Source of the DNA: a virus
IMG/VR virus record: IMGVR_UViG_3300031276_000004
Coordinates: 1-44,180 of that record
DNA: 44,180 nucleotides
Reading direction: 5' to 3' (one strand)
Part shown: positions 3,709 through 44,180 of the stretch, one piece after another
How the letters are laid out: each line of letters opens with the position of its first letter
How positions within the stretch are numbered: the first letter of the stretch is position 1
The notes under the pieces: model-generated
What the model was told of the DNA's origin: nothing
What the model saw: only the letters and a program-made list of their open reading frames with translations
Databases searched by the model: none
Position numbers and translations under genes: made by a program

Positions 3709-3736
3709 AAATTTAAGGAGTCCATAGAATGAAAAA

Positions 3737-3974
3737 ATAGTTGCTATGGTAAGGATTTGCACCTTACATGATACGTATAGATCATTCTCTTTGCGTGTTG
3801 AACCAGAATTTCACTGGCGTGGTACGCTCTATACTAACCCCCCATAGTTCTTTCGGACATTTAATCAACCTGTTAATCCCTACGGCTTCTTCGAGGATTA
3901 TCTTTTGCATTGCGTCTACCTTCCAGCAGCATTTTACCACCGCGGGTCCTACCCTGTTCCGCCATATAGCAACT
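3737..3974 (-). ncRNA. tRNA-like clamped RNA A (about 238 nt)
   Basis: Starts with GTTGCTAT (from 3973) and ends with ATAGCAAC then a T-run, giving an 8-bp acceptor-like closing stem. Before the 3' strand is a T-arm-like hairpin, TAAGG-TGCAAAT-CCTTA, identical to that of element G at 19.5 kb. A variable-arm-like hairpin (ATGAT...ATCAT) precedes it. The 5' part contains GGCGGAACAGGG and GGTAGACGC, the sequence of a Leu-type D-arm split by an insertion. Other hairpins include CCAG...CTGG and GCGT...ACGC. The promoter at 3981-4008 predicts a start at 3974/3973, exactly at the stem. No protein-coding content is convincing. Confidence 0.7.
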
Positions 3975-14528: not shown

Positions 14529-14728
14529 TTTTTATTTCTTAAAATAACATGTTCTAAATCATTTTGATATAAAAAATAATTATAATCAATACTTTTATAA
14601 TTTAATTTAACAACAAGATTTATATCAAAGTCTAAATTACAATCATCCCATGTACCATTTGAATACATAATTTCATCAAATTCTAATTTTGTTCCGTTTT
14701 TATCTTCAAAAATATCTAATGTTTTCAT
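14525..14728 (-). CDS. Hypothetical protein, 67 aa
   Basis: Begins at ATG 14728 after AAAGGAGCTTAA and ends in an ATGA overlap. Acidic, mostly beta-strand, no motif recognised. Second-tier early gene in the cluster downstream of the 15663 promoter. Confidence 0.6.
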   Translation of the reverse strand: MKTLDIFEDKNGTKLEFDEIMYSNGTWDDCNLDFDINLVVKLNYKSIDYNYFLYQNDLEHVILRNKK

Positions 14729-15135
14729 TTAAGCTCCTTTAATTTTCCGCATGGTGTGCCGTCTAGTTTTGTGTAATAATTAAAAATTTGTTTAAAGCTA
14801 TATAAATCATCATATATTCTACACCCAGAATCATCCATACAGGCAACAGCTACACAATAAATATACTCTTTACGCTTAATCATAAATTGATCTTTTTTCA
14901 GATCATTAAAACACTCTTCCATTGTTTCATAAGGGACCCATTCTGGTTCTTTTATTTCACGCCATTGATCCCACCATTCTACATCATAATGTTCAAAATT
15001 TAAATATTTTTCTTCAAAATCAAGGTCTACGCATAAAACTGGATTACATTCTAAATCAACAGCAATTCTTTTTTCATATTTTGTATAATTATTATTTTTT
15101 ACCTCAACCCAATGTGCCTCTCTTTGTTTTTTCAT
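14725..15135 (-). CDS. Tandem paralogue 2 of MKKQR..AHWVEV family
   Basis: 136 aa. Its first ~60 residues match the protein at 15193-15552 (KRIAVDLECNPVLCVDLD...YLNF...QWRE). The two also share the ribosome-binding leader GAAAGGATAATATT. A tandem duplication followed by divergence of the C-terminal half is evident. Family function unknown; the aromatic/acidic N-terminal repeat may be a small binding domain. Confidence 0.65.
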   Translation of the reverse strand: MKKQREAHWVEVKNNNYTKYEKRIAVDLECNPVLCVDLDFEEKYLNFEHYDVEWWDQWREIKEPEWVPYETMEECFNDLKKDQFMIKRKEYIYCVAVACMDDSGCRIYDDLYSFKQIFNYYTKLDGTPCGKLKELK

Positions 15136-15192
15136 AATATTATCCTTTCAAATATTCAATTTCTGAGTCCATTATTTCTAATGCTTTTTCTG

Positions 15193-15552
15193 CTAATTCT
15201 TATGAACGGTCGTCGTTATTCGATATACTTCGTATAAACCACTACGCACTTCGCTACTAACAAGACAAACCCAATTACTGTATGATTTAAAATGCCAGGG
15301 AAATTCAAAATCATTTTCTTTTTCAATATTTTCCAGATATCTTTCTAATGCATTTAATTCTGGTTTTTCTGTTTCTCGCCATTGATTCCATTCTGTGTTT
15401 TGGTAGCCCCTAAAATTTAAATATTCTTCTTCGTCATCGATGTAAACGCATAGAATCGGATTACACTGTAAATCAACTGCAATTCGCTTTACCCATCTTT
15501 CATTGTCCTTATTTCTAACCTCAACCCAATGTGCTTTTCTTTGTTTTTTCAT
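15193..15552 (-). CDS. Tandem paralogue 1, first gene of the replication-side operon
   Basis: 119 aa, with GAAAGGATAATATT before ATG 15552. N-terminal half paralogous to 14725-15135. After its stop another frame reads ELAEKALEIMDSEIEYLKG, a plausible lost C-terminus, so the annotated end (VHKN) may result from a frameshift. The leader contains a tRNA-like 3' half. Confidence 0.65.
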   Translation of the reverse strand: MKKQRKAHWVEVRNKDNERWVKRIAVDLQCNPILCVYIDDEEEYLNFRGYQNTEWNQWRETEKPELNALERYLENIEKENDFEFPWHFKSYSNWVCLVSSEVRSGLYEVYRITTTVHKN

Positions 15553-15576
15553 AATATTATCCTTTCAAATAAAAAA

Positions 15577-15600
15577 GACTGTGCCAGGACTTGAACCCAG
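15577..15600 (-). ncRNA. tRNA-like 3' half in operon leader
   Basis: On the minus strand CTGGG-TTCAAGT-CCTGG is a canonical T-arm (15600-15584). It is followed directly by CACAGTC, as an acceptor 3' strand would be. No matching 5' acceptor strand GACTGTG or proper D and anticodon arms precede it within 75 bases. It is therefore a fragment or a tRNA-like element in the 5' leader of the minus operon. Confidence 0.5.
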
Positions 15601-15662
15601 CTACTCACAAGTGGTACTTTCAGTAATCTCCAATATAGTTTTTATAATATTAAGTATACTTG

Positions 15663-15704: not shown

Positions 15705-15791
15705 TTTAATATTGTTTTTTTTTGAAAGTGTAGTATACTTAATAATGTAAGGTAGTTAACACCTTAACATAAAAAGCTTGGGAGGCTTAAT
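15705..15791 (+). promoter_or_regulatory. Early promoter and leader, copy 2
   Basis: -10 TATACT at 15734-15739, with the same ATTG-T9-GAAAGTGTAG upstream block as the minus-strand copy at 2430-2515. The leader carries TAAGGT...ACCTTA, where the other copy has TAAGGT...GCCTTA (a G-U pair). The RNA stem is therefore conserved despite base changes. AAGC...GCTT encloses the GGGAGG ribosome site. Confidence 0.75.
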
Positions 15792-15944
15792 ATGAAATTA
15801 ACTGAGAATTTAAAACAAATAATTAGAAGCTTGAGTGCTCTTCAGATTGCTAGATTAAGAAAAGAAGTAAGAAGATTAAAAAAATGTGTTCTTATTGATA
15901 TGACTGACAATCTTGTTGAAATTGAAAATGTGCCCGGATTATAA
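15792..15944 (+). CDS. Small basic helical protein, 50 aa
   Basis: ATG 15792 behind the early promoter/leader copy 2. Sequence begins MKLTENLKQIIRSL and continues as an Arg/Lys-rich amphipathic helix (LRKEVRRLKK) with an acidic tail. Could be a small nucleic-acid-binding or leucine-zipper-like protein; not recognised. The hammerhead ribozyme begins 2 bases after its stop. Confidence 0.6.
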   Translation: MKLTENLKQIIRSLSALQIARLRKEVRRLKKCVLIDMTDNLVEIENVPGL

Positions 15945-15945
15945 A

Positions 15946-16000
15946 ATAGCCCTGATGAGTCTTTGAAAATTAAGACGAAACGCCTTCGGGCGTAGGTTAT
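15946..16000 (+). ncRNA. Hammerhead ribozyme (type I)
   Basis: All invariant elements are present. Stem I is ATAGCC (15946-15951) with GGTTAT (15995-16000). The core CTGATGA is at 15952-15958. Stem II is GTCTT/AAGAC (15959-15963/15972-15976). GAA at 15977-15979 is followed by A15980 pairing with T15993. Stem III is CGCC-TTCG-GGCG (15981-15992). The NUH cleavage triplet is GUA, giving cleavage between 15994 and 15995. The cut would leave a 5'-OH mRNA whose leader has AAGGAG and the ATG at 16021. Confidence 0.92.
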
Positions 16001-16020
16001 AATTACAACAAGGAGCTAAT

Positions 16021-16248
16021 ATGAGTATAAATGGTATAGTAAAGGGTAAAACAATAAGTTACAGGTTTCATAACATGAGCGGAGAACCAATAGTTATAGA
16101 TGTAAAAAATAATGGTAATGTATTAATAATTAGAGACACGCGAGTATTTATTGTCGGTGATGTAATCAGGGTTAAATTATTGCCTGAAGATAAATTTTAT
16201 CAGGTAATGGAACAAAAAGGATGTTACATTACACTATGGTCAAATTAA
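16021..16248 (+). CDS. Hypothetical beta-rich protein, 75 aa
   Basis: First gene on the RNA downstream of the hammerhead, with AAGGAG 6 bases before ATG 16021. Predicted small beta-barrel (GKTISYRFHNMSGEPIVIDVKNNGNV). Function unknown. Confidence 0.65.
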   Translation: MSINGIVKGKTISYRFHNMSGEPIVIDVKNNGNVLIIRDTRVFIVGDVIRVKLLPEDKFYQVMEQKGCYITLWSN

Positions 16249-16450: not shown

Positions 16451-16675
16451 ATGAGTGATATAAATAATTATGAGTATATAGGTTTTGTAGAAAAAGAATA
16501 TTTAAAAAAATATCCATTTTTAGAATTCACAAAAAAAGGACATATTGTCTATTTGTTTGGAACACCATGTTATAATGCGGCAAAACATAATATGACAAGA
16601 GATATCATTTCCGGGGCAATAGAAAAAATAATGAAAGTTTACTGTTATAAAAACCCAAAAATTATTGACAAATAA
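16451..16675 (+). CDS. Hypothetical protein, 74 aa
   Basis: ATG 16451 follows AAAAGGAATTATT. Mixed alpha/beta, basic, aromatic N-terminus. No family recognised. Its last codons overlap the promoter of RNA B. Confidence 0.6.
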   Translation: MSDINNYEYIGFVEKEYLKKYPFLEFTKKGHIVYLFGTPCYNAAKHNMTRDIISGAIEKIMKVYCYKNPKIIDK

Positions 16676-16693
16676 TTATTTTTTTAGTATATT
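16665..16693 (+). promoter_or_regulatory. Promoter of RNA B
   Basis: TTGACA (16665-16670), 17-base spacer, TATATT (16688-16693). Predicted start ~16700, exactly where the closing stem of RNA B begins. The block TTATTGACA...TTTTTTTAGTATA is repeated at 16921-16950. Confidence 0.8.
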
Positions 16694-16698
16694 TATAT

Positions 16699-16769
16699 TA
16701 GTTGATGTACAAGAGACTGTGTGGCTGTCACTTGCAGATAGTTAAAGATGGCTTACAGCAACTATTTTT
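16699..16769 (+). ncRNA. Clamped RNA B (about 66-70 nt)
   Basis: TAGTTGATGTA (16699-16709) pairs with TACAGCAACTA (16754-16764) with one mismatch, and TTTTTG follows. It has its own promoter with the start at the stem, so it is a discrete short RNA ended by a stem plus U-tract. Interior arms are not clearly tRNA-like. It shares the 3' flank GCAACTATTTTTGTTTAAT with element C. Confidence 0.6.
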
Positions 16770-16922
16770 GTTTAATTACAAGCTTGTTGGGGCGCGTCAC
16801 CGAGGCAAGTTAGAAATTAAATACGGTTTTATGTGACTGTTTTTAATGGATGATAATAGGTATTTTGAAGCATAATAGAAATACAATCGGGAGACGTGCT
16901 TTTTTTTAATACACACTTATTA
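16770..16922 (+). other. Noncoding spacer with hairpins
   Basis: No ORF. It contains a CTTG...CAAG hairpin around GGGGCGCGTCACCGAGG; the core GCGTCAC recurs in the terminator hairpin at 17257-17312. It also contains GTATTT...AAATAC and a degraded copy of the TTTAATACGCACTTA flank. Unit 1 (promoter, clamped RNA, GCGTCAC hairpin) looks like a duplicate of unit 2. Confidence 0.45.
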
Positions 16923-16951
16923 TTGACAAATAATTATTTTTTTAGTATACT
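16923..16951 (+). promoter_or_regulatory. Promoter of the large structured RNA unit
   Basis: TTGACA (16923-16928), 17-base spacer, TATACT (16946-16951). Duplicate of the RNA B promoter with a better -10. Predicted start ~16958. Confidence 0.85.
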
Positions 16952-16957
16952 TTTATT

Positions 16958-17140
16958 TTTCGGTACTTTTTGAGAGGTCGAGTTCGATTCTCGATCGCTT
17001 GTAGAGGGCTGGTGCGAAGGGAGTCAGGTTCAATTCCTGATGATTGTTTCTAATCATAGAGATTAGAATAACTCTGGAGAGACATATTACACGGCGTACT
17101 TGGTCGTTAGCTTAGCATAGGAATATGTTAAGCAAAGTAA
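16958..17140 (+). ncRNA. Ornate structured RNA with two tRNA T-arm hairpins
   Basis: No ORF. TACTTT near 16964 can pair with AAAGTA near 17134 to close the domain. Inside are GGTCGAG-TTCGATT-CTCGATC (16976-16996) and GTCAGG-TTCAATT-CCTGAT (17023-17041), both perfect T-arm hairpins. There are also a 7-bp TCTAATC/GATTAGA hairpin (17049-17067) and a 10-bp stem capped by a GGAA (GNRA) loop (17110-17133). No 5' acceptor or anticodon arms fit either T-arm. It resembles the scale of large phage ncRNAs found near tRNAs (GOLLD, ROOL), but I cannot match it to either. Confidence 0.6.
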
Positions 17141-19207: not shown

Positions 19208-19280
19208 TGGAGTGTAGCTCAGTGGTTAGAGCGTCAGTCTTATAAACTGGATGTCGATAGTTCAAATCTATCCACTTCAA
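19208..19280 (+). tRNA. tRNA-Ile with UAU anticodon
   Basis: Acceptor TGGAGTG/CACTTCA (one G-U), D-arm GCTC...GAGC, anticodon arm TCAGT-CTTATAA-ACTGG with anticodon TAT at 19241-19243, variable loop ATGTC, and T-arm GATAG-TTCAAAT-CTATC. The discriminator is A and CCA is not encoded. It reads AUA, a very common codon in this genome. Bacteria usually read AUA with a lysidine-modified CAU anticodon, so a direct UAU reader bypasses that modification. Confidence 0.93.
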
Positions 19281-19466: not shown

Positions 19467-19585
19467 GTTGCTATGTGGCAGGAATAGGTAGACGCCAAAC
19501 CAGAGAACACTCTATTGATCGATGAGGTAGGGTTCGGGTATCAGAGTAAGTATCATGTAAGGTGCAAATCCTTACCATAGCAACT
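19467..19585 (+). ncRNA. tRNA-like clamped RNA G (Leu-type D-arm)
   Basis: GTTGCTATG/CATAGCAAC (9 bp) closes the element. The D-arm TGGC-AGGAATAGGTAGAC-GCCA is very close to that of bacterial tRNA-Leu. The last ~35 bases, including T-arm TAAGG-TGCAAAT-CCTTA, are identical to RNA A. The ~60-base middle contains AGAG-AACA-CTCT but no convincing anticodon arm. Too long (118 nt) for a tRNA. Confidence 0.65.
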
Positions 19586-19627
19586 GTTATAATAGTGGTT
19601 ATTTTATTTGTTAAAAGGAGCAAAATA

Positions 19628-44041: not shown

Positions 44042-44180
44042 CTATAATTTAAAATATTTTTTTAAAATATCGTTTATTACTTCATAAGCAAATTTATTTT
44101 CACTTTTTGCTTTCTTTTTTACTTTTTCGTATGTAACTTTTTCTATCAATAATACTGTTTTTTTAACATTCTTTAAATTT
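44042..44180 (-). CDS. True C-terminus of the HTH gene (right-end copy)
   Basis: Same frame as the gene at 20-295. In this copy it continues past the repeat and ends DILKKYFKL with stop TAG at 44042. Confirms that the gene spans the circular junction and that positions 1-20 are not genuine. Confidence 0.8.
   Translation of the reverse strand, partial: NLKNVKKTVLLIEKVTYEKVKKKAKSENKFAYEVINDILKKYFKL
44055..44180. repeat. Terminal direct repeat (right copy)
   Basis: Identical to 21-146; marks the overlap of a circular assembly. Confidence 0.9.

Follow-up and report, generated by a model that had tools for sequence, protein, structure and literature searches.

The locus described here raises the question of whether a phage operon carries a working self-cleaving RNA between its first two genes and what such a cut would serve. 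It lies at positions 15946-16000 (+) of a viral DNA of 44,180 nucleotides (IMG/VR record IMGVR_UViG_3300031276_000004), and this whole stretch is referred to as the window. An earlier note, made from the letters of the DNA, had described a hammerhead ribozyme at this place. A 126-nt exact direct repeat at the two window ends (21-146 and 44055-44180) suggests that the genome may be complete, either circular or terminally redundant. No host was identified via the relatives of the terminase, which are less than 40% identical and scattered.

Anatomy of the hammerhead and its operon

The stretch 15946-16000 (+) is a complete type I hammerhead with all core bases and three stems. The sequence, the fold of the isolated RNA and a covariance model place every element where the earlier note had put it. 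Stem I consists of six base pairs, including one G-U, between AUAGCC (15946-15951) and GGUUAU (15995-16000), both recovered by folding. The catalytic core CUGAUGA (C3-A9, 15952-15958), located by the core pattern, provides C3 at 15952, U4-G5-A6 at 15953-15955 and G8-A9 at 15957-15958. It is followed by stem-loop II (GUCUU-UGAAAAUU-AAGAC, 15959-15976) with five base pairs (15959-15963/15972-15976) and the loop UGAAAAUU, and by the core bases G12-A13-A14 (15977-15979), both seen in the predicted fold. Stem-loop III (ACGCC-UUCG-GGCGU, 15980-15993) has five base pairs (15980-15984/15989-15993), a UUCG loop and a folding energy of -7.8 kcal/mol; it is the predicted 3'-terminal hairpin of the upstream product. 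The remaining core positions are A15.1 at 15980, U16.1 at 15993 and A17 at 15994. A CUGANGA...GAA core with an A15.1-U16.1 pair and three helices with covariation assign the element to the hammerhead class, and the open stem I together with the loops closing stems II and III assigns it to type I. As far as sequence can tell, the NUH cleavage triplet is GUA at 15992-15994. Family homology likewise puts the predicted cleavage site GUA^G between 15994 and 15995, as had been proposed. The coordinates also bear out the proposed geometry, in which the downstream product would begin with a 5'-OH at 15995, 26 nt before ATG 16021.

The predicted fold of the isolated 62 nt is exactly this hammerhead (z = -2.5). 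The hammerhead core pattern has one match in the window and none in 100 shuffles. Eighteen other phage loci, with the window excluded, were used for a covariance model, which scores the element at 71.9 bits (E = 3e-18); its second-best match in the window reaches 16.3 bits. A chance match was considered and is ruled out by the shuffles, the E value and the covariation. At curated thresholds, Rfam reported one tRNA in the whole window and not the hammerhead. With 80 nt of flank on each side, the probability of all hammerhead pairs is about 0.004 by secondary-structure energies alone, which leave out tertiary contacts, Mg2+ and co-transcriptional folding; alternative folds that lose stem I are favoured. 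Such low values are usual for the family, in which the window ranks 70 of 126, and the poor fold in long context was therefore not counted against the element.

The plus operon is headed by a 90-nt promoter/leader repeat (15708-15797, +), of which a 97% inverted copy lies at 2424-2513. The repeat contains a TATACT box near 15734, a leader hairpin, a ribosome-binding site and ATG 15792. This start codon opens ORF1 (15792-15944, +; 50 aa), whose UAA (15942-15944) stands directly before stem I. No relatives of ORF1 were found in PHROGs, Pfam or the viral-contig scan, and the case for its being a gene is made by the shared leader and start. Its place behind this leader suggests that ORF1 may be an immediate-early gene. 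The hammerhead is followed by a short, unstructured leader with the ribosome-binding site AAGGAG (16001-16020, +) and by ORF2 (16021-16248, +; 75 aa), which has a 96% identical homolog in a related phage. The downstream leader region 15995-16035 (41 nt) folds at -0.2 kcal/mol only.

Several other repeats were observed in the window. Two copies of a strong promoter-like sequence that are 84% alike (16645-16699, TTGACA-17-TATATT, and 16903-16957, TTGACA-17-TATACT) lie within about 650 bases without a likely gene. A 160-nt direct repeat (14995-15154 and 15412-15571, 81%) lies at the starts of two leftward genes (14725-15135 and 15193-15552). Hairpins resembling tRNA T-arms occur at 15583-15601 (-) and 17023-17041 (+) (GGTTCAAGTCC and GGTTCAATTCC), outside any tRNA gene called by ARAGORN. 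A 42-nt inverted repeat pair (95%) is located at 3736-3777 and 19547-19588, the latter copy near tRNA-Ile(UAU) at 19208-19280.

A hammerhead family at phage gene junctions

The 30-nt core with stem-loop II recurs without a single change in 51 stretches of viral contigs from IMG/VR and in three crAss-like phages. The flanks of these identical cores differ, yet stems I and III re-form in nearly all of them. Relaxed patterns yielded 129 parsed type I hammerheads, 18 of which made up the covariance model, and this model produced 126 matches in 100 sources. In the alignment of these matches, which was fitted to the model and hence to a scheme that favours pairing, 95.0% of the stem cells are paired as against 64.6% after shuffling, and 28-38% are paired when the partners are slid by 1-3 columns. 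Double-changed cells number 559 compared with 148 in the shuffled data, and double changes were seen in 14 of the 17 stem pairs. The raw flanks, read independently of the model, show the same covariation of the stems. Among the 129 parsed members the cleavage triplet is mostly GUC (107), followed by GUA (18), GUU (3) and AUA (1); the GUA of the window belongs to a minority. A variable-core pattern with loop II one base shorter, which excludes the main subfamily, retrieved archaeal and Legionella hammerheads, among others. An unusual stem III, CCUAG(n)CGAUGG, is found in the hammerheads of L023, L029, L035 and L043 and recurs in several viral contigs.

In the 18 loci examined, no hammerhead of this type I family was reported at the Rfam thresholds. 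Individual members stay below them with, for example, 36.4 bits for RAGATH-1 in L005 (threshold 56.3) and 31.3 bits for Hammerhead_1 in L008 (threshold 34). Thus the family is probably under-annotated.

The hammerheads of the family sit on the coding strand between co-directional phage genes. Placement was counted for 118 hammerheads with enough flank, using ORFs of at least 40 aa and a stop window of -25 to +8 relative to C3. For 90 of these, an upstream ORF has its stop at stem I or within the core, compared with 20 of 118 on the opposite strand and 12% of random places. A ribosome-binding site with a start codon 8-80 nt after the cut is present in 79 of 118, compared with 11 of 118 on the opposite strand and 17% of random places, and the median distance from cut to start in the family is 39 nt.

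About half of those 90 upstream stops cluster at -10 to -8 and are mostly UAA; in 15 cases the UGA inside the core CUGAUGA is itself the ORF stop. Members with a UGARAAUU loop carry an A at -7 in 60 of 61 cases, and a UAA near -7 is also kept in 14 of the 16 such members that lack an upstream ORF stop. This suggests that the A's before stem I have a structural reason, probably a contact with loop II. Judging from these alignments, genes use the structurally kept A's as stop codons.

Some contigs carry ribozyme arrays. In the densest one seen, about 6 kb of sequence contains eight type I hammerheads, which lie between ORFs (L089, 1325-6904, +). Two further contigs (L038 and L136) have four hammerheads each, and in another (L021) three hammerheads and two pistol ribozymes lie between successive ORFs. 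A family hammerhead is also present between annotated genes 67 and 68 of the cultured Agathobaculum phage AB434P2/P3, with the UAA of gene 67 at stem I. Owing to this gene junction in a cultured phage, testing need not rest on metagenome DNA alone.

Two ribozyme types behind one leader

The second copy of the promoter/leader (2424-2513, -) heads a divergent operon. It is followed by an ORF of 75 aa (2202-2429, -), a GC-rich hairpin between the stop codon and the ribozyme (2152-2201, -), a Twister-P1-like ribozyme (2099-2151, -) and the next gene (1826-2086, -; 86 aa). The hairpin is kept together with the twister in relatives, and the stretch from stop codon to cleavage site folds at -31.5 kcal/mol. 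The twister matches positions 1-68 of the 68-position model with 42.7 bits (E = 3.3e-6 for the whole window), under the Rfam gathering threshold of 67.2; the twisters of the relatives score 33-40 bits. In both operons of the window, a ribozyme is thus positioned right behind the first ORF after the shared leader.

Two further viral contigs, from relatives of the window phage, possess this leader, and the three phages together have seven distinct leader copies. Behind six of these comes a single short ORF, and its stop codon directly adjoins a ribozyme, which is a Twister-P1-like ribozyme with its hairpin in five cases and the window hammerhead in one. This rule, drawn from three related phages only, agrees with the earlier proposal that the ribozyme may separate a short first gene from its operon. 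The seventh leader runs straight into the 96% identical ORF2 homolog and has neither ORF1 nor hammerhead. Compared with this relative, ORF1 and the hammerhead of the window are flanked by two copies of TAATATG, and the unit thus behaves as a cassette. The twister slot is similarly variable. Between the window and L167, the leader is about 89% identical and the block from the twister to the next gene about 95% identical, whereas the ORFs between them are unrelated and encode 75 and 62 aa, respectively. In L005 the order behind a leader is ORF, twister, ORF, hammerhead, ORF. One of the related phages also carries a DUF3800-VIII RNA (L164, 2661-2724, +) that scores 57.3 bits, above threshold.

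Sequence and comparison together establish the fold, the family, the location between a stop codon and the next start codon, and the replacement by a twister at an equivalent place. The two ribozymes at one position are unrelated and have nothing in common but their reaction, so selection likely acts on self-cleavage itself. That twister and hammerhead occur at one position after a shared leader, both within a single genome and in its relatives, argues against most sequence-specific explanations and for the cut as what matters.

Possible function and comparison with known systems

The window element probably works as a cis-cleaving type I hammerhead and delimits a leader-ORF cassette of a phage operon at its 3' end. 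RNA polymerase would read from the shared leader through ORF1 and on. After the polymerase has moved beyond 16000 and the ORF1 stop is free of ribosomes, the ribozyme would fold. The folded hammerhead would then cut co-transcriptionally between 15994 and 15995. The ORF1 mRNA would thereby acquire a stable hairpin followed by a 2',3'-cyclic phosphate, and so a 3' end resembling that of a terminator although transcription continues. ORF2 and the later genes would be carried on their own mRNA, which would begin with a 5'-OH and an unstructured leader of 26 nt. Decay and translation of the two mRNAs could be independent of each other, and first genes could be swapped with the leader of the next gene left undisturbed. 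For both ribozyme types a stable hairpin is predicted at the 3' end of the upstream product, namely stem III and the folded stretch of the twister slot. The twister cut is expected on the 5' side of the ribozyme, and the twister alone would therefore leave no 3' hairpin; the extra GC-rich hairpin precedes it. In this model, a hairpin at the 3' end and an unstructured leader would fit a first mRNA that is protected and a second that is insulated. The released mRNAs may be stabilised or insulated; the fate of the 5'-OH product, stabilisation or degradation, would depend on the host. A more general scheme is offered tentatively. A leader, a swappable first gene and interchangeable ribozymes (twister, hammerhead and, elsewhere, pistol) may form a slot in which the ribozymes act as mRNA segmenters, the tertiary-contact motif of the hammerhead carries the upstream stop and cleavage is timed by translation termination.

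Three explanations would deny the element a part in cutting the mRNA in two, or would give the cut another outcome. A stretch that matches the hammerhead consensus by chance or as a decayed copy, with no role, could account for the missed Rfam thresholds and for the other structures preferred by the folding energies in long context. This is very improbable in view of the E value of 3e-18 from an independent model, the core and stems without decay, the covariation and fixed gene-junction position of the family, and the second ribozyme type in the equivalent slot. It is scarcely credible that stem III is a bidirectional terminator hairpin mistaken for part of a ribozyme. The hairpin was scored as terminator-like on the minus strand, if weakly, but on the plus strand there is no U run after it, minus-strand transcription is not expected here as the divergent ORFs start left of 15552, and the conservation of the core and of stems I and II does not depend on stem III. 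A role in making circular or ligated RNA, in which an RtcB-type ligase would join 2',3'-cyclic phosphate and 5'-OH ends, is highly improbable as well. Arrays would yield pieces with ribozyme-made ends on both sides, but the plus operon has one ribozyme only, no RtcB gene was found in the window, and Perreault et al. 2011 searched without success for spliced or circular products of tandem phage hammerheads (PMC3088659).

Two other readings accept the cut and differ in its consequence. Ribosomes ending ORF1 could mask stem I and the core, so that the ribozyme would sense translation of ORF1 and set the expression of ORF2. The ORF1 UAA ends 2 nt before stem I, and the upstream stops of the family, including the UGA within the core, are placed as such a switch would require. 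However, there is a separate structural reason for the UAA, as seen in members without an upstream stop, and compact phage genomes push stops near any intergenic element; a switch of this kind is possible but rather unlikely. The same anatomy would also serve an element that destroys mRNA, in which the 5'-OH product is degraded fast and ORF2 expression is lowered. The 5'-OH downstream product of the glmS ribozyme of Bacillus subtilis is reported to be rapidly degraded via RNase J, and a 5'-OH end can be an entry point for decay in some Bacillota. Against this stand the ribosome-binding site and start codon kept just downstream in most members and the arrays, which put ribozymes before many genes of one operon. 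In addition, the RiboJ hammerhead raises rather than lowers expression in E. coli (PMC6206723). Destruction of the downstream mRNA is accordingly considered unlikely.

Hammerheads that flank phage genes are already known (PMC3088659). Perreault et al. 2011 described prophage hammerheads that flank single genes or short blocks and proposed that they process long phage transcripts; tandem phage hammerheads cleave in vitro, and those of A. tumefaciens also cleave in E. coli (PMC3088659). In 2017 the purpose of self-cleaving ribozymes in phages was still called open (PMC6155905). The term 'stop codon' is absent from the main text of Perreault et al. 2011 (PMC3088659). A limited literature search, with the 2014-2015 twister and RAGATH reports outside its scope, found no description of a leader-ORF-ribozyme slot with exchangeable ribozymes or of stop codons built into hammerhead stem I. 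The phage type I hammerheads of Perreault et al. share the core and the three-stem fold with the window element. Its subfamily differs from them in an almost fixed stem-loop II with the UGARAAUU loop, in the near-invariant A at -7, which is often in or next to the upstream stop codon, and in alternating with twister at the same slot.

Among the Rfam families, the RAGATH-1 hammerhead (RF03152) has the same type I topology, and a similar A-rich UAUAAAAU stretch is aligned before stem I. The window scores 21.3 bits against its gathering threshold of 56.3, and the 5' hairpin of the model is matched only partly, with two of four pairs non-standard in the window. Hammerhead_1 (RF00163) and Hammerhead_3 (RF00008) have the core and stem II in common with the window. 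The element was not reported by Hammerhead_1 at the gathering threshold (34 bits) and reaches 24.3 of the 48.5 bits needed for Hammerhead_3, whose type III topology, with stem III open, is the wrong one. Twister-P1 (RF03160) takes the corresponding place after the shared leader, both in the divergent operon and in relatives, and catalyses the same type of reaction, but it is unrelated in sequence and fold and has the extra GC-rich hairpin before it.

The RiboJ hammerhead cuts off the RNA upstream of a gene, which then has a standard leader (PMC6206723). By analogy, the window hammerhead may be regarded as a natural counterpart of this insulator. RiboJ is artificial, was derived from sTRSV, stands between promoter and gene and is followed by a 5' hairpin (PMC6206723), whereas the window hammerhead lies between two genes and has an unstructured downstream leader. 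The theta (HDV-like) ribozymes of gut phages are also phage self-cleaving RNAs for which a role in RNA processing has been proposed, as it is here (PMC10879173). They belong to another class and are tied to tRNA 3' processing and not to mRNA segmentation (PMC10879173).
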